This document shows, one piece after another, positions 25,742 to 35,578 of a stretch of DNA of 64,000 nucleotides. The DNA is from an uncultured Armatimonadota bacterium (GTDB lineage: Bacteria; Armatimonadota; Fimbriimonadia; Fimbriimonadales; Fimbriimonadaceae): contig CAIYMO010000033.1 of assembly GCA_903927345.1 (NCBI GenBank), positions 1-64,000 of the forward strand, given 5' to 3'. How positions within the stretch are numbered: position 1 is the first letter of the stretch; each line of letters opens with the position of its first letter. Below the pieces are notes generated by a model. It made no database searches. It saw only the letters and a program-made list of their open reading frames with translations, and was not told the origin of the DNA. Position numbers and translations under genes: made by a program.

Positions 25742-26764
25742 ATGCTCACCCGCGAGTTCGTCGAAGCGATGCCCAAAGTGGAACTCCACGTCCACTTAGA
25801 AGGTGCAACCCAGCCCGCGACTCTCCTGAAACTCGCCAAGAAGAACGGAATCAGTCTCCCCGCTAACGATCTTGAAGGAGTCAAAAACTGGTTCAAATTC
25901 GAAAACTTCGACCAGTTCGTCCAGGTCTACATCGCCTGCATTGAATGCTTCCGCTCTGGAGAAGACATCGAACTACTTGCAGAAGAGTTTGCTCGCGAAC
26001 AGGCCCGGCAGAACATCCTCTACACCGAAGCCACCTACACCGCCGAAACAATCTTCCGACGATGTGGAGTCCCGGGTGACGAGCAAATCGAGGCCCTTCT
26101 CGCCGGATTTGCCAAGGTTCCCGAAGTCAAAGTTCAGCTCATCCTGGACATCGTCCGCGACATGGATGTGCCAAACGGCGAATGGACGTCCGCCCTGTGC
26201 CAAAAGTGGAACGCCAAAGGCGTCTGCGCAATCGGCCTATCCGGCTTCGAGGGGCGAAATCCCGTGGCACGCCACTCCGCCGCAATCCGTGACGCAAAGA
26301 AGGCCGGCCTCAAAGTCTCCACCCACGCCGGCGAAACCCAGGGTCCCGACTCCATCCGAGAAGTCCTTGCTGATGCCGATCCCGATCGAATCGGCCACGG
26401 AGTCCGATGCGTCGAAGACGCCCACCTCGTCGCAGAACTCCGAACAAGCCAGATTCACCTCGAAGTCAATCCATCGTCGAACATCTGCCTAGGCGGCTAC
26501 CCTGGCCTTGCCGAGCACCCGCTTCCACGCATGATGGATGAGGGGCTTAATGTCTCGATCAACTCCGACGATCCCCCCTTCTTCGACACAACCCTCAGCG
26601 ACGAGTACTGGCGATGCGCTCAGGAATATGAGTTCTCGACGGACACCGTCTTCTCGCTCGCGCAAAACGCCGCCCGAAACGCCTTCCTGCCCGATGCAGA
26701 CAAGAAAGCTCTCCTTCAGGAAATGGTCAGCCGGTTTAACACGCTTACCAGCGGATTAGATTAG
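25742..26764 (+). CDS. add: Adenosine deaminase family protein
   Basis: A 340-residue metal-dependent deaminase of purine salvage. Zinc-site and catalytic motifs are present: 'VELHVHLEGA' (H16, H18), 'KVSTHAGETQGPDSI' (third His and catalytic Glu), 'RIGHGVRC' and 'SINSDDPPFF' (metal-binding Asp). Overall length and order match adenosine deaminase; the closely related adenine deaminases share these motifs, so substrate is not certain. The 3' end overlaps the convergent fabH gene by 20 bases. Confidence 0.9.
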   Translation: MLTREFVEAMPKVELHVHLEGATQPATLLKLAKKNGISLPANDLEGVKNWFKFENFDQFVQVYIACIECFRSGEDIELLAEEFAREQARQNILYTEATYTAETIFRRCGVPGDEQIEALLAGFAKVPEVKVQLILDIVRDMDVPNGEWTSALCQKWNAKGVCAIGLSGFEGRNPVARHSAAIRDAKKAGLKVSTHAGETQGPDSIREVLADADPDRIGHGVRCVEDAHLVAELRTSQIHLEVNPSSNICLGGYPGLAEHPLPRMMDEGLNVSINSDDPPFFDTTLSDEYWRCAQEYEFSTDTVFSLAQNAARNAFLPDADKKALLQEMVSRFNTLTSGLD

Positions 26765-27731
26765 CGCCCCAAACCAGGCCAGCACCGAAGCCAACGGTCA
26801 TTACGACCATGCCTTCTTTCAGTCGGCCCTCTTTGGATGCCTCATAAAGCGCCAAAGGAATCGATCCCGCGCTGGTATTGCCGTAGTTATGAAGGTTGAC
26901 AAAAACTTTCTCTGGCGGCAAGTTAAGTCGCTTCGCCGCAGACTCAATAATGCGGATGTTCGCCTGGTGAGGAACAAACAGATCAACCTGGTCGGCGGTC
27001 ATTCCTGCGTCGTGCAAAACCTTCTCACAGGCATCTCCCATCGCCCCAATCGCAAACCGATAAACCTCGTTTCCGTTCATCTTAATGCCGTAGGTGCGAG
27101 CGAACCACTCCTCACTCTTCGGCGGATACTTCGTGCCACCAAGCTCGTTCATGATGTGCGGCGCGCCGCTTCCGTCGCTGAGCAGAACCGTCTTAATCAC
27201 GCCCCGTGTGGTCGATTCCTGATGACCCAGCACGATTGCCCCCGCTCCGTCTCCGAATAGAATACAAGTCGAGCGGTCATTCCAGTTGACTTGCTTGGTC
27301 AAGGTGTCAACACCTACGATAATCGCGTTATCAACCTGACCGGACTCAATCATTGCCGTTCCAACTGATGACGCGTAAATGAACCCAGCGCAAGCCGCAC
27401 CAAGGTCAAAGGCGCCTGCGTTCTTCAAGCCGAGTTGGTCCTGAACATAGCAAGCGGCAGTTGGCCAGTCCCAGTCGCCCGAAACCGTAGCAACAATGAC
27501 CATGTTGATGTCGCTCTTCTCAAGTCCAGAACTTTCGAGTGCCTCGCGAGCCGCCTGGAGAGATAGATCAAAGCACCCTTCATCAGGTCCGCAGATTCTG
27601 CGCTGCTTGATTCCAGTTCGTTGAACGATCCACTCGTCAGTCGTGTCCACTGTCTTGCTCAATTCCTCGTTCGTGAGGATCTTGGTTGGGAGCGCGTGTC
27701 CGATGCCTTTTACGACGGCGTTTCTATTCAT
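26745..27731 (-). CDS. fabH: 3-oxoacyl-ACP synthase III
   Basis: A 328-residue condensing enzyme that starts fatty acid synthesis by joining acyl-CoA with malonyl-ACP. The Cys-His-Asn triad is visible: Cys114 in 'LGAACAGFIYA', His in 'LFVPHQANIRI' and Asn in 'NLHNYGNTSAGSIPLAL'. 'TDEWIVQRTGIKQRR' is the family N-terminal signature. The gene follows plsX by 15 bases, forming the common yceD-plsX-fabH lipid operon; fabD, fabG and acpP are not in the window. Confidence 0.96.
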   Translation of the reverse strand: MNRNAVVKGIGHALPTKILTNEELSKTVDTTDEWIVQRTGIKQRRICGPDEGCFDLSLQAAREALESSGLEKSDINMVIVATVSGDWDWPTAACYVQDQLGLKNAGAFDLGAACAGFIYASSVGTAMIESGQVDNAIIVGVDTLTKQVNWNDRSTCILFGDGAGAIVLGHQESTTRGVIKTVLLSDGSGAPHIMNELGGTKYPPKSEEWFARTYGIKMNGNEVYRFAIGAMGDACEKVLHDAGMTADQVDLFVPHQANIRIIESAAKRLNLPPEKVFVNLHNYGNTSAGSIPLALYEASKEGRLKEGMVVMTVGFGAGLVWGANLIRW

Positions 27732-27746
27732 GAACCTGCAAAGAAG

Positions 27747-28826
27747 TTACCCGTTTTGCGGTTCTTCGAAGTTCTGAGGGAGGTCGCGATGAACTGCCTC
27801 GCGGATATGGTCAACCAGTTCCGAGCGAATCGCTTTGTCCGCCATCAGAACGGCGTTCATAATCGCCTTCGAGTTGCTACGTCCGTGGGCAATAATGCAC
27901 GTCCCGTTCAAACCCAAAAGCGGAGAACCGCCGACTTCGGCGTAGTCCATATGCTTCCGGATGGGCTTCATCACCTTCTTAAGAGGCCAATACATCGTCT
28001 GCAACAACTTATTGGTCGGCACTCCGGAGCGAATCATCTTCGCAAACATTTCCGCAACACCCTCGGCGGTCTTCAATATCGTATTCCCTACGAACGCCTC
28101 GCAAACGACAACATCGCAGGAGGAGTTGAACATGTCCTTGCCTTCGATGTTTCCCGCGAACCACTCGTGCTGCTGAAGGAGCTTGTAGGCCTGCTTCGCA
28201 AAAGCATTACCTTTCCCCTCTTCCTCGCCAATGTTCACGAGGTGAACCTTTGGGTTTTTGCGACCCATCACCGCCTCGGCGTAAGCCCGGCCCATGATGG
28301 CGAACTCAACAAGGTGCTCAGGATCTACATCTGGAGAAGCGCCAGAGTCGAGCAAAAGGAATCCGCCGTGCATGTTCGGAAGCTGAGATCCGATCGCGGG
28401 TCTATGAATCCCTTGGACTTGTCGCCAAGTCAGCAGGGAAGTCGCAGAGGCCGCCCCCGTCGAGCCTGCGGAAACGAACGCTTTGGCCTTGCCTTCTTTC
28501 ACCAGACGGCAACCAACGAGCATCGAAGAATCCTTCTTCTTTCGATATGCATCGAGTGGCTTTTCACCCATCTCAATGACCTGCGAAGCATGAAAAATCT
28601 TGACGTTCTGGGGGCGAGGCGCTCCCGTGCCTACTCGGTTCAAGGATGCTTCAATGACTTCCTGCTGACCGACCAAAATCAGATCACCCTTAATCGAAGG
28701 TGCCGCCATCAAACCGCCAAGAATGACTTCATCAGGGGCGTTATCACCGCCCATCGCGTCAAGAACAATATTGGGCTCGCCGTGGGAGATAACCTCAGAA
28801 AGGTGAATCTGCTCGGCCTCGCTCAA
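27747..28826 (-). CDS. plsX: Phosphate acyltransferase PlsX
   Basis: A 359-residue enzyme that converts acyl-ACP to acyl-phosphate, the acyl donor for PlsY in phospholipid synthesis. Family motifs: 'NIVLDAMGGDNAPDEVILGG', 'SSMLVGCRLVKEGKAKAFVSAGSTGA', 'LLDSGAS', and C-terminal 'GSPLLGLNGTCIIAHGRSNSKAI'. About 15 N-terminal residues precede the core. The start codon overlaps the yceD stop by four bases (ATGA). Confidence 0.96.
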   Translation of the reverse strand: MSEAEQIHLSEVISHGEPNIVLDAMGGDNAPDEVILGGLMAAPSIKGDLILVGQQEVIEASLNRVGTGAPRPQNVKIFHASQVIEMGEKPLDAYRKKKDSSMLVGCRLVKEGKAKAFVSAGSTGAASATSLLTWRQVQGIHRPAIGSQLPNMHGGFLLLDSGASPDVDPEHLVEFAIMGRAYAEAVMGRKNPKVHLVNIGEEEGKGNAFAKQAYKLLQQHEWFAGNIEGKDMFNSSCDVVVCEAFVGNTILKTAEGVAEMFAKMIRSGVPTNKLLQTMYWPLKKVMKPIRKHMDYAEVGGSPLLGLNGTCIIAHGRSNSKAIMNAVLMADKAIRSELVDHIREAVHRDLPQNFEEPQNG

Positions 28827-29359
28827 TTCTGATCCTCCGAAAGAAGCGCGCGGAGCTTCGTGAGCTCGCTATTCTCATTGTCGATCACCCGAGTAGCGCC
28901 CTCGGCGAACAGACGATCGCACTCCGCTACCGCATCCCCTTCGCAAGCAGGATGGATCGGGAGGTTAAGCAAAAGCGTTTGTTGGAGAAGTGCCTCGACT
29001 AAGAGGTTGTTCTCGTCAAAGAACTTCACTGGTTCGTCAGGATCAGCTTCCACCTTCGCAAAGTCCTGGTGGCTCATCGAACTCGGAATTCCAACAACTC
29101 CGAACTGCTCATCCAAAGCAAACTCGATCGGCATTTCGATTGCCCGATCGCATCGTGAACATTCCAAAACGACGGTCGCTTTGAACTCGCCAGTAATAAG
29201 AAGTGCATTGCCTGTAGAGACTGCTTCTAGGAAGCCTTCGACAGGCGCAACGAGGTCAAGATCCTCCATTTCTGGAAGTTCAGAGGCAATGTCAACAGCC
29301 AGCTCCCTTCCAGGATGCTGGAGAACGTCGTTGAGGTCAAGTAAGTCGTCCCTTCGCAC
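28823..29359 (-). CDS. yceD: YceD family protein (DUF177)
   Basis: About 178 residues from GTG 29359, chosen because the family begins close to this point ('RRDDLLDLNDVLQHPGRELAVDI'). The open frame extends 33 codons further upstream, but that part would overlap the divergent promoter and lipoprotein start. Family signs are the metal-like pair 'VLECSRCDRAIEMPI' and the C-terminal 'LPIHPACEGDAVAECDRLF'. DUF177 proteins accompany rpmF and plsX and are implicated in 23S rRNA maturation. Here rpmF is missing between yceD and plsX: the two genes overlap. Confidence 0.82.
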   Translation of the reverse strand: MRRDDLLDLNDVLQHPGRELAVDIASELPEMEDLDLVAPVEGFLEAVSTGNALLITGEFKATVVLECSRCDRAIEMPIEFALDEQFGVVGIPSSMSHQDFAKVEADPDEPVKFFDENNLLVEALLQQTLLLNLPIHPACEGDAVAECDRLFAEGATRVIDNENSELTKLRALLSEDQN

Positions 29360-29459
29360 CGGAGTGAAATTGTACCAGTCTGGCGAATTCCTAAAAAAAC
29401 CTATCCAAGCGGGAACATAACTTGCTATACTCCGATCACTCTTGTTGCTAGGGATCACT

Positions 29460-30932
29460 ATGCGTCGTCAATTGGATTGGAAACAACTGAAGTGGGGTCT
29501 GGGCGTGAGCGCCCTCGCCATCGCGATTTTTGGCTGTGCGGGTAACACCGCTGGCGGCTCTTCTACGGGCTCAACTGCGAGCACAGGGTCGACCGCGACT
29601 ACTGGTTCGACCGCAACCTCCGGTGGGCTCTTCCCACAGGTTGCTACTGTCAACCTTTCGGATACCCCGGCACTGTTGCAATACGTGTTCCTTACCGGCG
29701 CAGGTCGAGCACCTTCGACGGAAGTAGCCGTTGCGCGAAACATGGCCGTCACCGATAACTTCGGTGTTGAAATGTCTGACCTTACGGAAAAGACCCTCAC
29801 TCTGACGTCGAACCAGTCGCAAATCTTGGCGACCAACGTCGGATTGCTTACAACAGAGTCGCGCAACTTCACCAAGGTCGATCTGAACATGGTTCGATAC
29901 GACCTCACCGACGACCTCGGTAGCCGATCGTTCACCTCGATCAGCGGAATCCCAGGTTCGATCCCATCAGACGTTCGCATCTTCAAGGGCCGAGAAAGCC
30001 TCGTCCCTCTTTACATGGATGGTTCGACCATCAACACCGAAACTCAAACGATCAACGGTGTTGATACCGAAGTCGCAGTCTTCGACCGCGCTTGGTTCGA
30101 CAGCATCAACCAAATCGAAGGAGATTCAACCGTCGTCCGAGGATTCCTCAGCGACTACATCTGCTTCGACGTCTCCGCGATCTCCAGCAGCCTCCGCCCA
30201 ACCTTGAGTCAAGGCCTCGGCGCGGCTAACCGACTCTTCTTCTCAGGAGACGGATACGCTCTCGGTGCAGGCGACCCAGCCGCTGGTGTCGTCGGTGGTG
30301 CTCCATTCGAGACCATCTTCTCTGCAGGCCAAGATGCTTCGGTCGTCGGACGATACTCTTCGCCAGCTACTCTCCCAAGCGGAATCGCTCTCTCGGTAAC
30401 CCCGGGTAGCTACACCACTGTTGGAGTTGACCCAACCGACGTCACCACGACGGACCCAGTCCTCGCTCGAAAGATCACCTCGTTCCAAGGAACCTGGCGA
30501 CCTCACTTCCAGCAACGACAAGATCCTTCAACCGGATCGATCTCGGACATGGGCTACCTCAAGAACGTTCACACGTTCGAGGCAATCTCCTTCCCAAGCA
30601 GCTTGGATGACGAGCGACAAGACGTCGTCTTCATCAACCAAACCATTGGAACCGCAGCAAACGGCGCAAAGTTCGCGACCATCACATCCATGATGTGGGG
30701 CTACGTCGACCTGAGCACCAAGCAGGTCTTCCTCTACCCAATCAAGAACATTGGCGACTCAAATGCGATCACCAACCGAACTGGTGAAGTGGTGGGAACC
30801 CTTGGTACCCAATACAACCTCGCTGGCGGCTCCACTGTCTCACCACAGAAGACTCGCTGGATCGACTTCACGTTCACGACTCCTCCATCTGGATTCCCAG
30901 CAACCGGAAAGATCGTCGTTCTACGCAAGTAA
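29460..30932 (+). CDS. Lipoprotein of unknown function upstream of the proteasome genes
   Basis: A 490-residue lipoprotein starting at ATG 29460. The signal ends 'ALAIAIFGCAG' with lipidated Cys26, followed by a low-complexity linker of Gly/Ser/Thr with repeated 'GSTA(S/T)TGSTAT' to about residue 50. The remaining 440 residues are beta-rich with no recognised family; sub-segments read 'SRSFTSISGIPGSIPSDVRI', 'RGFLSDYICFDVSAI' and 'TKQVFLYPIKNIGDSNAI'. Codon use is uniform (CGA for Arg, TCG for Ser), suggesting good expression. Its stop overlaps the dop start by one base (TAATG), so it is probably cotranscribed with the UBact-proteasome genes although exported. Confidence 0.7.
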   Translation: MRRQLDWKQLKWGLGVSALAIAIFGCAGNTAGGSSTGSTASTGSTATTGSTATSGGLFPQVATVNLSDTPALLQYVFLTGAGRAPSTEVAVARNMAVTDNFGVEMSDLTEKTLTLTSNQSQILATNVGLLTTESRNFTKVDLNMVRYDLTDDLGSRSFTSISGIPGSIPSDVRIFKGRESLVPLYMDGSTINTETQTINGVDTEVAVFDRAWFDSINQIEGDSTVVRGFLSDYICFDVSAISSSLRPTLSQGLGAANRLFFSGDGYALGAGDPAAGVVGGAPFETIFSAGQDASVVGRYSSPATLPSGIALSVTPGSYTTVGVDPTDVTTTDPVLARKITSFQGTWRPHFQQRQDPSTGSISDMGYLKNVHTFEAISFPSSLDDERQDVVFINQTIGTAANGAKFATITSMMWGYVDLSTKQVFLYPIKNIGDSNAITNRTGEVVGTLGTQYNLAGGSTVSPQKTRWIDFTFTTPPSGFPATGKIVVLRK

Positions 30933-32356
30933 TGCACCGCATCCTCGCCGGTATCGATACGGAGTACGGACTCCGTATCGAGGGGCGGGGAGCAGAAACA
31001 CAAGTTGAGGACTCGGAAGACTTCGTCAGGAGTTATCCGGGTCCTTCTTTTGTTGGCTGGGACCACCGATTTGAAAATCCCCGCAATGACCTCCGAGGCT
31101 TCTCGGTAGATCGCCTAGAAATCGATCCGAACGATGCCAAGTTCGACAAAGGCAAATCCTATGGTGACCCCAAGGATGTTCGAGCCGATCGAGTGCTTCT
31201 GAATGGAGCCAGGTTCTACAATGACCATGGTCACCCCGAATACGCCACACCCGAATCCTTCTCGATCTTCGAACTAGCTCGGCTAGTCTCCGAAGGCGAC
31301 CAGCACCTGCTCTCAACCGCCGAAGCCTACGCATTAAAAACTGGTCGAGCGGTCACCCTCTACCGCAACAACACAGACTTCCACGGCTCCTCCTTTGGCA
31401 CGCACGAGAGCTACCTCGTCTCGCGCAAACACTCGCCCGAGGCAATCCAGAAAGCCGTTGTTCCCATTCTGATTGCGCGCCAACTCCTCACTGGAGCCGG
31501 AAAAGTAGGAGCCGAAACCGGCGACCCCTGTGACTTCCAACTCAGCCAACGCGCCGACCACCTTTCCGAACTCTGCAACCTAGAAACCCTATGGCGACGC
31601 CCTATCTTCAACACCCGTGACGAAGCGCATGCCGACCCGGCCAAATGGATTCGCCTGCATGTCATTACGGGAGACTCGAACATGATGGAGGTCAGCTGTG
31701 CCCTTAAGGTAGGACTAGTAAAGCTGGCACTGTATCTGCTTGAGCTGGGAAGGGTTCCCGCTTGGCAAATCGACGACCCTGTCGATCAGTTCAAACACTT
31801 CAGCCGGACGATGGATAGCCCCGAAACCCGAAGATTTGGCTGGGAGATCATTGAGTCTTACTCAACGGCGGCGAGCGGGGCCGGTGTCGCGGAGATTGAT
31901 CCTGAAATCGATTGGGTAGCAAGGGCCGCGTCCGAACTCTTCGCTGGGCTCGAGTCAGCGCGACCCGCCATCGTCAAGCGTGTCGAATGGCTCGCCAAGC
32001 GTAGCCTTCTTCAGCAGGTGGGCGAGGAGTTTGGAGAGGATGCCGATCTCCGTTCTTACGACCTCGAATTTCATAACATCAACCCGGAGGAAGGGCTTTA
32101 TCACGCTCTGGAACAAGCAAATCAAGTTCACCCGCCCATCCCCAAGAACAAGTTCGAAAATCTTCTCCTAACCCGAGCCTTCGCCCGATCAATCGCAGTC
32201 ACTCAATTCAAAAGCCACCTCCAAACCGTCGGCTGGCGAGGCATCACCATCAACAACGAATTCATCGATCTGCCGCCAGAAAAGGAATATCCCGCGACGC
32301 TCGCCGACTGCCCTGACGTAGAATCATTCATAGCCGCCCTCAAGGAGATCAGATGA
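30932..32356 (+). CDS. dop: Dop-type depupylase/deamidase of the UBact (Pup) system
   Basis: A 474-residue member of the Dop/PafA carboxylate-amine ligase superfamily. It reads as Dop rather than the ligase PafA: 'WDHRFENPRNDLRGF' fits the Dop-specific loop, and 'NGARFYNDHGHPEYATPE' carries the Dop-type 'NGARyy.DHaHPEY' with the presumed catalytic Asp98 (PafA has 'LYLDvGsHPEYAT'). Also seen: 'FHGSSFGTHESYLVSR', 'FQLSQRADHL', 'RPIFNTRDEAHADP' and 'RLHVITGDSNMMEV'. Dop deamidates a C-terminal Gln of the modifier to Glu and cleaves modifier from targets; the modifier next door ends in Gln. Oddity: the N-terminal Mg-binding motif reads GIDTEYG with Asp9 where Glu is usual. Overlaps the modifier gene by ATGA. 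Confidence 0.88.
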   Translation: MHRILAGIDTEYGLRIEGRGAETQVEDSEDFVRSYPGPSFVGWDHRFENPRNDLRGFSVDRLEIDPNDAKFDKGKSYGDPKDVRADRVLLNGARFYNDHGHPEYATPESFSIFELARLVSEGDQHLLSTAEAYALKTGRAVTLYRNNTDFHGSSFGTHESYLVSRKHSPEAIQKAVVPILIARQLLTGAGKVGAETGDPCDFQLSQRADHLSELCNLETLWRRPIFNTRDEAHADPAKWIRLHVITGDSNMMEVSCALKVGLVKLALYLLELGRVPAWQIDDPVDQFKHFSRTMDSPETRRFGWEIIESYSTAASGAGVAEIDPEIDWVARAASELFAGLESARPAIVKRVEWLAKRSLLQQVGEEFGEDADLRSYDLEFHNINPEEGLYHALEQANQVHPPIPKNKFENLLLTRAFARSIAVTQFKSHLQTVGWRGITINNEFIDLPPEKEYPATLADCPDVESFIAALKEIR

Positions 32357-32535
32357 TTTACGCCGAACAGCCGCAAAGACAGATGCCAGCCACCCCCGAG
32401 CGCAAACTCGGCGACGACAGCGGCCCTAAGGCCCCCGACGTCACCAAGCCAGAAGGCGGAAACGAGCTCCTTCGCCGGCTCAAAAAGGTCGACCCCGACC
32501 AAGCCAAGAAGTATCGCCAGAGGTCCGGTCAATGA
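32353..32535 (+). CDS. UBact/Pup-type ubiquitin-like modifier protein, 60 aa
   Basis: A 60-residue, hydrophilic, probably disordered protein. The N-terminal 35 residues are rich in Pro/Gln/Asp/Gly, followed by a basic helix 'NELLRRLKKVDPDQAKKYRQ' and the C-terminal end RSGQ. A conserved C-terminal helix ending in Gly-Gln or Gly-Glu is the hallmark of Pup and of UBact, the Gram-negative relative described in Nitrospirae, Planctomycetes, Verrucomicrobia and Armatimonadetes. RSGQ differs from actinobacterial KGGQ/E and fits UBact better. The terminal Gln would need deamidation before ligation to lysines. Starts in the dop stop (ATGA) and ends in the prcB start (ATGA). Confidence 0.9.
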   Translation: MIYAEQPQRQMPATPERKLGDDSGPKAPDVTKPEGGNELLRRLKKVDPDQAKKYRQRSGQ

Positions 32536-33287
32536 TCTCGCCCCTCGCGAAGCCATTTAGCGAACTGGTCCCCGCTCCCTTCAACGAGGCAACCGGAAAC
32601 CACCCCGAAACCCACGGCACCACCGTACTCGCACTCCGCTACAAAGACGGAATTCTCATCTTCGCCGACCGCCGAGCAACGATGGGCAATCTCATCATGT
32701 TCGAGCAGGCCGACAAAATCATGGCCCTCGACGACTCCACAGTAGTCGCAATCAGCGGCTCCTTCGCCCGCTCGGTCGAAATCTGTCGCTATCTGAAGCA
32801 CTCCTTCAAGTACTATCGACGCTCCGTGCTCCAGGAGCTCAGCCTCCAAGGCAAGCTTGCCGAGATAAGTCGTTCCCTGGCCGGAAACGCGGCGGCAGCT
32901 ATGGAAGGTATTGGCGTCTTCTTGCCCATCTTGGCTGCCTTCAATAAGGACACCGAAGAGTTTCAGCTGTACTTCTTCGACGGTGCCGGAGCACGGTTCC
33001 TGAACGAGGAATACGCCTGCGCCGGATCGGGAAGCATGCAGATCAAAGGCGTCTTCGAATACCTACGAAGAAGGGAAGGCTCCTTTGCCAAGCGACCACT
33101 GGATGAAGTCCTCAAAAACGGTCTTGAAATGTTGGACATTGCCGCAACGCTTGACAGCGCAACTGGCGGCTTCCAGAGAATCGAACCAATGGTCCGAGTC
33201 CTCGATAAGGACGGCAACCGTCCGGTCGACGAAAAGGCCCTCAAAACGGCGATGCAAGCCGTTCTGAAGGCCGCAAAACCTCTCTAG
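32532..33287 (+). CDS. prcB: 20S proteasome beta-type subunit
   Basis: A 251-residue N-terminal-nucleophile hydrolase with an approximately 29-residue propeptide. Autocleavage is predicted between Gly29 and Thr30 in 'ETHGTTVLALRYKDGIL', exposing Thr30 as nucleophile. Asp46 ('IFADRRAT') and Lys62 ('ADKIMAL') match catalytic Asp17 and Lys33 of mature beta subunits, and 'CAGSGSMQIKG' matches the Ser129 region. The protein forms the proteolytic rings that degrade UBact/Pup-tagged substrates. The actinobacterial neighbours prcA, pafA and mpa are not in the window; a convergent peptidase gene follows directly. The 3' end overlaps that gene by four bases. Confidence 0.92.
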   Translation: MISPLAKPFSELVPAPFNEATGNHPETHGTTVLALRYKDGILIFADRRATMGNLIMFEQADKIMALDDSTVVAISGSFARSVEICRYLKHSFKYYRRSVLQELSLQGKLAEISRSLAGNAAAAMEGIGVFLPILAAFNKDTEEFQLYFFDGAGARFLNEEYACAGSGSMQIKGVFEYLRRREGSFAKRPLDEVLKNGLEMLDIAATLDSATGGFQRIEPMVRVLDKDGNRPVDEKALKTAMQAVLKAAKPL

Positions 33288-35578
33288 CGCTGCAACCGCG
33301 CCAGAGCACCCTCAACGGTGTTCCGAGCAAAGTGCAACGAGTGGTTTCTTCGAGACTCGATCACCGGGATAGCGCGCTTGTCACCGTAGTCGGCAAGCGC
33401 ATTAATCGCCTGATCCATTGGAACGTAAGCGCGTCCTTTCGCAATCGAAATGAGAAGGTTGAACACCTCGTTTGAACCCGGTTTGTCTTTCACCGAACCA
33501 AGGACGCTAATTGCGGTCATCCGAATCGGTCCCGGCGCGAAGCCCTTGACGGCGGTCAATGCCATCTCACGTGCCCGATTCGCGTCGTTCTGAGCAAACC
33601 AGTTCAATGCCCGAGTCTTCGTCTGCAGGTTCCAAGTCAAAGTATTCCAACCCAACTCGGCAGTCGCCACGTCGTTGCGTACCGAGAGCAACTTATCGAA
33701 GGCTGCATTGCGCATCTCCTCGTTCTTGGTCTCCTTAAAGATCTTGGCAAAGGTAGCTTCATTGCTCGATCCCTTGTTGGCAGAAAGCCCTTGCAGAGCC
33801 GTCAGTTGCTCTCGAGGAACCGTACTTGTCGCCAAGACGTTCTGCAGGAACGCATCATCTTGAATCCGACGCAACAGCTCAAGTTTTAGCGCCAATGAAC
33901 GGGGCCGATCAAACTCAGCTTTGCGGAAGTCCTGCGAAACCTTATCGATCAGTCGCATCCGTTGAGCATCGTTGTCCGCCAAAGTCCACGCCCGCTCCCA
34001 GTCGCCTTTTGAGTAGGAAGTGGGATACTCAACATCGCAAAGAAGCCAAGCACCTGGATCAACAATCAGAGTTTCACCCGTCCCAACCTCAACCTTCACA
34101 GCTTCGGCAGTTGTTCCTCCCAGAACCCCTCGGCGCACAACCATCTCGCCGTTCATGATCACGTATTCAACGTCAATGTCAAAACCAGCTTGATTCTGCT
34201 TAATCGAAACCCCGCCATCAGCCTTCGCAACCTTAAACCGGGGATACCCCTTGGTGTAGAACCATTGTTTTCGGAAGTCATCCAGCTTGGTGTTCGTCGA
34301 CTTTGAGTAGGCACCAAAGAACTGCTCAGTGGTGACATTCTTGCGACCATACTCACCGAGATAAGCCTTGGTAGCTGCCCAGAACTTAGGCTCTCCCAAT
34401 TGGTGCATCAACATAAACATTCGAGTTGCGCCGCCTGGGTATGCGTTGCCGTCAAACATCTCCATTGGCACGGTGTAGTCTGTTCGCACCATCGGATGTT
34501 CGCGTGCCGAACCCTTGCAACCCTCGTAGGTCCCAAACCGCTCGATGTGGTACGCGCTGTCACCATCCATCTGTCGAGTCACAAAGTGGGGCAAGAATGT
34601 CGCCCAACCCTCATTAACCCAGATGTGCGACCAACTCGGAGTGGTGATCAAGTCACCAAACCACTGGTGCGCCAACTCGTGGGCGTTCAGCCCCCGAGCC
34701 GACGAAGTTGACGCCGAATTCTCTGGAAAAATGGCTCCAATTGTCTGCGTGGTGCAACTCAAGTTCTCCATTCCACCGAACATGAACTCCGGCACCACCG
34801 ATTGAGCGTACTTATCCCACGGATAGTCCACTCCAGTCAACTTCGAGTAAATCTCAACCAGCCTATCGGTTCCCTTGAACGCGGTCTTCGCTGCATCTTC
34901 CGCTCCCTTCGGCGCCCAAATCTGAACCGGCTTGCCCTTAAAGTTTCCGTCTGGGATGGCGACGTAATCGCCCGCTACCAACGAGATCAAGTAGGTCGCC
35001 ATCGGCTGATCCTGCTTCCAGTGCCAAATCGATTGATTACCCACCGTCTCTGAACCCAGCAACTTGCCGTTTGACAAAACGCTCATCCCCTTCGGAACGC
35101 GCGCGATAAGCTCAGCGGTCGCCTTATCATTCGGATAGTCGTAAGTCGGGAACCAGTACCGGTTATCCTCCATCTCACCTTGGGTGTAAGCGAGAGATCC
35201 TCGGCTCGGATAAGCCCGTTCTGCCGGAACGAAGTAAATTCCCGCCTCGGGCGCCGCCGCGTAACTGATCGTAACCGTCAGCGCAGCTCCACTCGGAACC
35301 CCCGAACATCGAACCACCACATTCTTCGCCGTCGTTTCGGACTTGAACTTCCCAGCCCCCGAAACCGAAACCGATTTGATCGTCATCGGCCCCTTGTCGA
35401 ACGCCAAAACGGCATTCTTCGCGGTGGTAACCACCTTGTGAACAACGGTTCCCGAGACAGCCTCCGCCTTGAAGTCAAGCGAGACATCGAGCTTGACGTC
35501 AAGAAGGTCGAATTGGTGCGGCAAGCGCACATCGGGTGCGAAATAAGACGCCGCGGCAAGCACAAGGCCAGAAAGCAT
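33284..35578 (-). CDS. M1 family metallo-aminopeptidase, exported
   Basis: A 764-residue zinc peptidase of the aminopeptidase N/leukotriene A4 hydrolase family. The zinc motif HELAH is at 300-304 with the third ligand Glu323 in 'HIWVNEGWATF'. The substrate-binding 'FMFGGMENLS' lies at about 266-275. A short N-terminal signal sequence ('MLSGLVLAAASYFAPDV') suggests export. The C-terminal 220 residues are HEAT-like ('RSLALKLELLRRIQDDAFLQ', 'IRMTAISVLGSV'). It trims N-terminal residues from peptides. Last gene of the ANTAR-HIT-UDG-M1 row; convergent with prcB. Confidence 0.92.
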   Translation of the reverse strand: MLSGLVLAAASYFAPDVRLPHQFDLLDVKLDVSLDFKAEAVSGTVVHKVVTTAKNAVLAFDKGPMTIKSVSVSGAGKFKSETTAKNVVVRCSGVPSGAALTVTISYAAAPEAGIYFVPAERAYPSRGSLAYTQGEMEDNRYWFPTYDYPNDKATAELIARVPKGMSVLSNGKLLGSETVGNQSIWHWKQDQPMATYLISLVAGDYVAIPDGNFKGKPVQIWAPKGAEDAAKTAFKGTDRLVEIYSKLTGVDYPWDKYAQSVVPEFMFGGMENLSCTTQTIGAIFPENSASTSSARGLNAHELAHQWFGDLITTPSWSHIWVNEGWATFLPHFVTRQMDGDSAYHIERFGTYEGCKGSAREHPMVRTDYTVPMEMFDGNAYPGGATRMFMLMHQLGEPKFWAATKAYLGEYGRKNVTTEQFFGAYSKSTNTKLDDFRKQWFYTKGYPRFKVAKADGGVSIKQNQAGFDIDVEYVIMNGEMVVRRGVLGGTTAEAVKVEVGTGETLIVDPGAWLLCDVEYPTSYSKGDWERAWTLADNDAQRMRLIDKVSQDFRKAEFDRPRSLALKLELLRRIQDDAFLQNVLATSTVPREQLTALQGLSANKGSSNEATFAKIFKETKNEEMRNAAFDKLLSVRNDVATAELGWNTLTWNLQTKTRALNWFAQNDANRAREMALTAVKGFAPGPIRMTAISVLGSVKDKPGSNEVFNLLISIAKGRAYVPMDQAINALADYGDKRAIPVIESRRNHSLHFARNTVEGALARLQR

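Follow-up and report, generated by a model that had tools for sequence, protein, structure and literature searches.

A gene for a bacterial 20S proteasome beta subunit that is not accompanied by genes for the alpha subunit (prcA), the ligase (pafA), or the ATPase raises the question of whether the encoded protein functions without an alpha ring or has its partners encoded elsewhere. Such a gene is found in the uncultured Armatimonadota bacterium (family Fimbriimonadaceae) with the assembly GCA_903927345.1, in the 64,000-nucleotide stretch analyzed here (the window), with which contig 33 (CAIYMO010000033.1) begins. A predicted lipoprotein gene is followed there by dop, UBact, and prcB, with no prcA, pafA, or ATPase gene adjoining the dop-UBact-prcB cluster in the window. 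The initial annotation left both answers open. As detailed below, the three genes very probably form part of a complete UBact-20S proteasome system that is distributed over four chromosomal loci, as judged by comparative sequence analysis. The genome consists of 3.1 Mb in 57 contigs, and the tool's figures for its quality are 100% completeness and 0.05% contamination. The closest named record is a metagenome-assembled genome (MAG) of Fimbriimonas, with 95% identity in UBact and 87% in the lipoprotein, so that the organism probably belongs to this genus.

The dop gene (positions 30932 to 32356, plus strand) encodes a 474-residue member of the Pup ligase family (PF03136, 346 bits) that can be predicted to be a depupylase/deamidase-type enzyme. 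Its NCBIfam score is higher with the Dop model TIGR03688 than with the PafA model TIGR03686 (277 versus 203 bits), and its best match in the Protein Data Bank (PDB) is Dop (4b0r, E value of 2e-57). Compared to PafA, it contains ∼28 extra residues at the position of the previously described Dop-loop (PMC7947786), as well as an ATPE motif. In ∼40 loci, the spacer between the N-terminal motif and the NGAR motif comprises 82 to 89 residues in Dop (n = 32) and 56 to 61 residues in PafA (n = 33). The best PDB match and the longer spacer expected from the Dop-loop thus indicate that this protein is Dop and not a PafA paralogue. In one relative (L045 in genome G026), the dop frame stops 264 nucleotides before UBact and the genome contains three Pup_ligase pieces; this dop may be frameshifted.

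The UBact gene (positions 32353 to 32535, plus strand) codes for a 60-residue protein ending in RSGQ. Its identification as UBact in the initial annotation is confirmed by scores well over the cut-offs of the Pfam UBact family PF20513 (75.2 bits, cut-off of 27.8) and the NCBIfam model NF033388 (77.1 bits, cut-off of 35). Every UBact homologue inspected has Gln or Glu at its C terminus, and these two residues toggle among relatives, even between close sister genomes (L039 versus L042). Multiple or tandem UBact genes are found in several genomes, as in G013 (C4:768105-768378), G079 (C30:12142-12415), and G134 (three matches on three contigs).

The prcB gene (positions 32532 to 33287, plus strand) encodes a 251-residue protein (PF00227, 87 bits) with a predicted propeptide of ∼29 residues followed by the catalytic Thr30. 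The best NCBIfam model is 20S_bact_beta (TIGR03690, 125 bits), and the protein matches PrcB of Mycobacterium tuberculosis in the PDB with an E value of 3e-25. The residues Thr1, Asp17, and Lys33 are invariant in 40 of 40 relatives, and the HGTT processing site is conserved. No Anbu family appears among the Pfam and NCBIfam matches of PrcB, with no Anbu model having been searched by name. The Pfam and NCBIfam profiles thus bear out the original naming of Dop, a small modifier, and a Thr-nucleophile proteasome subunit. The dop/UBact and UBact/prcB junctions are both 4-nucleotide ATGA overlaps, as noted initially, and translation of the three genes is likely to be coupled. The spacing at the UBact/prcB junction remains between −4 and +2 nucleotides in all 20 genomes of the family that were sampled. 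The profile scores, together with the preservation of this arrangement in 20 of 20 related genomes, rule out chance.

Profile searches of the genome revealed exactly two Pup_ligase proteins, two Proteasome proteins, and one Prot_ATP_ID_OB_C protein. The second Pup_ligase protein, PafA (402 bits), is encoded on contig 30 (L006:7229-8707). The predicted alpha subunit, PrcA, is encoded on contig 8 (L007:11279-11944); it scores 24.6 bits with the Pfam Proteasome family and 69 bits with TIGR03691, and it matches the alpha chains of Rhodococcus (E value of 3e-12) and M. tuberculosis in the PDB. The ATPase of the ARC/Mpa type, encoded on contig 36 (L008:8016-9695), combines two OB domains with an AAA domain (PF17758, PF16450, and PF00004), scores 442 bits with TIGR03689 (cut-off of 504.75), and matches Mpa in the PDB with an E value of 4e-102. 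Each of these three genes stands alone among unrelated genes. Accordingly, the description of the cluster as lacking prcA, pafA, and the ATPase does not apply to the genome, and the suggestion that the other subunits are encoded elsewhere proved correct. The normal second cluster that would have made this a mere split operon was not seen; there are three separate loci instead. The ATPase gene is located closely 3′ of a GGDEF-like gene (domain named by eye) in 11 of the 20 family genomes (L008:6706-9695 and relatives), which might represent an operon of its own. In genome G000, the search yielded only two Proteasome-family genes, prcB and prcA, so that HslV was not detected, and some relatives encode a third, HslV-sized protein.

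Several observations weigh against the assignment of a complete system. In NCBIfam, the product of pafA yields a near tie between the Dop and PafA models (283 versus 278 bits); it is called PafA because it is missing the Dop-loop and because of the position of its gene in clustered relatives. The alpha subunit, with its low Pfam score, is the weakest of the gene identities. All five proteins miss the NCBIfam cut-offs for the actinobacterial equivalogs (277 of 492 bits for Dop, 278 of 551 for PafA, 125 of 192 for the beta subunit, 69 of 139 for the alpha subunit, and 442 of 505 for the ATPase), so that their functions are assigned at the level of the family, not the equivalog, and the system is therefore classed as UBact-type and not as an actinobacterial Pup-proteasome. 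Finally, in a draft of 57 contigs the distances between the loci are unmeasurable, and proof that they are separate comes only from the relatives with single-contig genomes.

A survey of 151 genomes of Armatimonadota, 77 of which encode UBact, placed this layout in its phylogenetic context. Each of the 20 genomes sampled from the family, which represent 10 genera, has dop, UBact, and prcB in one place and the remaining genes, pafA, prcA, and that for the ATPase (arc), at other locations. In five relatives whose genomes consist of a single contig, a distance of at least 78 kb separates the four loci from one another, assuming circular distances. In contrast, 15 of 20 genomes from other families contain a six-gene cluster, arc-dop-UBact-prcB-prcA-pafA; of the remaining five, three are interrupted by contig ends, and in the other two, one or two of the genes lie outside the cluster. 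Intermediate states occur in other lineages, with arc located elsewhere in one genome and both arc and pafA in another. The same order is found in verrucomicrobial records, where it is complete in L210 and partial in others. The single cluster is therefore likely to be the ancestral state of the phylum, with the genes scattered in this family.

The scattering may well be a product of drift without functional meaning, with the lipoprotein gene a neighbor that shares a promoter. This explanation, which leaves the identity of the system untouched and competes only with a functional layout, is considered somewhat the more probable one. Indeed, prcA and pafA have no constant neighbors, any one neighbor being common to at most 6 of the 20 family genomes, as drift predicts; it is also consistent with the intermediate states, which include, besides those mentioned above, dop-UBact pairs with no adjoining prcB (L162 and L165). 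However, the lipoprotein-dop-UBact-prcB unit is intact in 20 of 20 genomes, with gene ends mostly overlapping or touching, while the surrounding gene order decays. In L162 (8555-10180) and L165 (8450-10183), which belong to another lineage, dop-UBact is preceded by a different gene for an exported protein of ∼220 residues.

Alternatively, the scattered pafA, prcA, and arc could have been acquired later, as unrelated genes that displaced the original ones, as their positions at loci unrelated to the cluster might suggest. This is highly improbable. The family is monophyletic in the trees of all five proteins, and pairs of gene trees within the family share 7 to 11 of 17 internal splits, far above the 0.14 to 0.25 obtained with shuffled labels for the three pairs tested. 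The trees place none of the three genes outside the Armatimonadota, all outgroups used being from this phylum. Furthermore, the ATPase tail type and the alpha-pocket Lys residue (see below) are the same as in clustered relatives. Foreign-gene replacement is thus rejected by family monophyly and shared splits, and, judging from the trees, the scattered genes are the original, vertically inherited orthologues. Least probable of all is a reduced system in which PrcB is an HslV- or Anbu-like beta-only protease with no alpha ring, ligase, or ATPase, which would fit the window cluster, where prcA, pafA, and the ATPase gene are not found, but is rejected at the gene level, given that all three genes are present in this genome and in all 19 family relatives, that family prcA is monophyletic and co-inherited with prcB, and that PrcB is closest to the actinobacterial beta subunits and not to HslV (125 versus 23 to 28 bits).

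Systems of this kind are already known. The alpha and beta subunits of proteasomes from Armatimonadetes, Nitrospirae, and Verrucomicrobia were described in 2017 (PMC5666114), and both Pfam and NCBIfam include a model for UBact, so that the view of the cluster as remarkable for being non-actinobacterial is out of date. In the literature collection that was searched, no usable paper was found under the name UBact and none on a Fimbriimonas proteasome. What is new is a dispersed variant that is fixed in the family and has a constant lipoprotein gene in front. The other UBact clusters of Armatimonadota and Verrucomicrobia share with it the six proteins and the ATPase tail type; they differ in having the genes in the order given above, whereas here there are four loci and the lipoprotein gene replaces arc before dop. 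The Pup-proteasome of M. tuberculosis has homologous Dop, PafA, PrcA, PrcB, and Mpa, as well as a small modifier with C-terminal Gln or Glu. Unlike the actinobacterial system, the one described here has UBact in place of Pup and an ATPase without the GQYL tail, the phylum does not conserve the alpha-pocket Arg26, and the gene order, which has been called rigidly conserved for Pup-type systems (PMC3511204), is broken. The alpha-less HslV and Anbu share with PrcB the Thr-nucleophile beta fold; PrcB differs from them in that its score as a 20S beta subunit greatly exceeds its score as HslV and in that its partner PrcA is encoded by the same genome.

In mycobacteria, the 20S gate is opened by Mpa and PafE by means of a C-terminal GQYL sequence, whose Tyr contacts Arg26 or Glu119 of the alpha subunit and whose carboxylate can contact the alpha subunit Lys52 (PMC9599533, PMC12288473). 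The ATPase tails of Armatimonadota lack this Tyr in 40 of 40 cases and have Ile or Val in the penultimate position and Ile, Val, Leu, Met, or Phe in the last one. Further loci, including three Verrucomicrobia-like ones, have the same Tyr-less tail. By its domain make-up, this ATPase can be described as Mpa/ARC-like without the GxYx (HbYX-like) tail. In the alpha pocket, Lys is present in 39 of 39 sequences, and Arg is lost in 38 of 39, being retained only in the genome of the window. These counts refer to an alignment column, with an M. tuberculosis PrcA sequence as the ruler, whose Arg26/Lys52 numbering agrees with the published one (PMC9599533). A regular-expression count of Arg was not decisive alone, and the inspected alpha sequences agree with the alignment column. 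Almost all of these proteasomes have thus lost the Tyr-Arg contact on both sides, and that of the window's genome has lost it on the Tyr side only, with the Lys side kept. Given that the pattern is common to clustered and scattered genomes, it is a property of the UBact-type proteasomes of the phylum and not of the split. This natural Tyr/Arg-less variant makes the question of which contact opens the gate a testable one.

By homology to the mycobacterial Pup-proteasome (PMC3511204, PMC6466877), Dop would convert the Gln residue at the UBact C terminus to Glu by deamidation, a step that should be needed here because UBact ends in Gln. PafA would then ligate UBact-Glu to lysine residues of the substrates. 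The ring of the ARC ATPase would bind the UBact-tagged proteins, unfold them, and thread them into an alpha7-beta7-beta7-alpha7 core of PrcA and PrcB for degradation, and Dop could also remove the tag for recycling. The ATPase can be expected to still dock on the alpha ring by its Tyr-less aliphatic tail, with the carboxylate meeting the alpha-pocket Lys. Coupled translation would tie together the amounts of the tag, the tag-processing enzyme, and the protease subunit. The sequences directly establish the genes, their orthology, the conservation of the catalytic residues inspected, the distribution over four loci throughout the family, and the loss of Tyr and Arg; the reactions, co-transcription, the mode of docking, and any contribution of the lipoprotein are inferred.

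The first gene of the unit (positions 29442 to 30932, plus strand) encodes a predicted lipoprotein, with a signal sequence and a lipobox Cys; the lipobox Gly-Cys pair is invariant in 41 of 41 homologues. It was initially taken for an exported lipoprotein whose gene is an upstream neighbor. The exported lipoprotein is there, but its gene is not a boundary: it has the same orientation as dop, shares 1 nucleotide with the dop start codon (TAATG), and is conserved in this place, with a homologue immediately 5′ of dop and in the same orientation in 20 of 20 family genomes and at more than 50 loci overall, some of them from the same genomes. In the profile search of the 151 genomes, the homologues beside dop in these 20 scored 383 to 503 bits, two of the 20 encoded a weaker paralogue, and nothing above 30 bits was found in the other 131. 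No promoter-like site was found inside the lipoprotein-dop-UBact-prcB unit, which might be co-transcribed. By conserved linkage, the lipoprotein gene belongs to this gene unit.

No Pfam family matches the lipoprotein of the window, and weak matches occur elsewhere only in isolated single members; the best match of its sequence profile in the PDB has an E value of 0.24. The AlphaFold2 models, which are of good confidence (mean predicted local distance difference test score of 84 for the whole protein and 89 for the C-terminal domain), show a mature part composed entirely of beta structure, the N-terminal half of which resembles a beta-sandwich. Foldseek found no match at an E value of ≤0.001 for the whole model or the C-terminal domain. 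With VIA-align 2, the best match of the whole model was the Bacteroides fimbrial protein 3sy6_A (Z score of 6.3, 106 residues aligned at 2.9 Å, within residues 68 to 232), and that of the C-terminal domain was TbpB (4o3w_A; Z score of 4.2, 86 residues at 4.4 Å); both Z scores are within the range that may reflect a mere common arrangement. Linkage alone does not place the lipoprotein in the proteolytic machine; more likely, it reflects transcription in common with a housekeeping unit. A functional role in the UBact-proteasome, for example as an envelope-side sensor or client, appears unlikely; if true, it would mean a cytosolic bacterial proteasome wired to the cell surface through obligate co-translation. 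To our knowledge, no lipoprotein-like, surface-wiring component exists in any bacterial proteasome.

Downstream of prcB, a convergent gene on the minus strand (positions 33284 to 35578) encodes an M1 peptidase (PF01433 and PF17900), as annotated initially, and overlaps prcB by 4 nucleotides at its 3′ end. As a convergent, non-recurrent neighbor in the family, it was rejected as a partner and lies outside the system. A terminator-like hairpin of 15 pairs for this gene (positions 33236 to 33272, minus strand) is located within the 3′ end of prcB. On its other side, the unit adjoins a divergently oriented DUF177-like/plsX/fabH group (positions 26745 to 29458; names assigned by eye), whose DUF177-like member is present in 18 of 23 family loci.

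Two genomes of Armatimonadota without UBact (G005, L219:2568-10019, and G053, L220:79-9601) contain an operon encoding two Pup_ligase-family enzymes, an ARC-like ATPase, and a JAB-type peptidase, along with a small ubiquitin-like-looking protein with no Pfam match (L219:8833-9234) and a ThiF/E1-like protein (L220), possibly a hybrid of ubiquitin-like and pupylation-like parts. UBact loci of the Verrucomicrobia or Armatimonadota type were also found under Klebsiella pneumoniae and Methanoregulaceae titles (L215 and L174); these records are probably mislabeled or contaminated MAGs.

For this organism, it is settled that no proteasome devoid of an alpha ring is present. The analysis also names an uncharacterized lipoprotein gene as the constant partner gene of the unit. 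A system in four pieces has long been kept by the whole family, and physical linkage of its genes is thus not needed for its maintenance.

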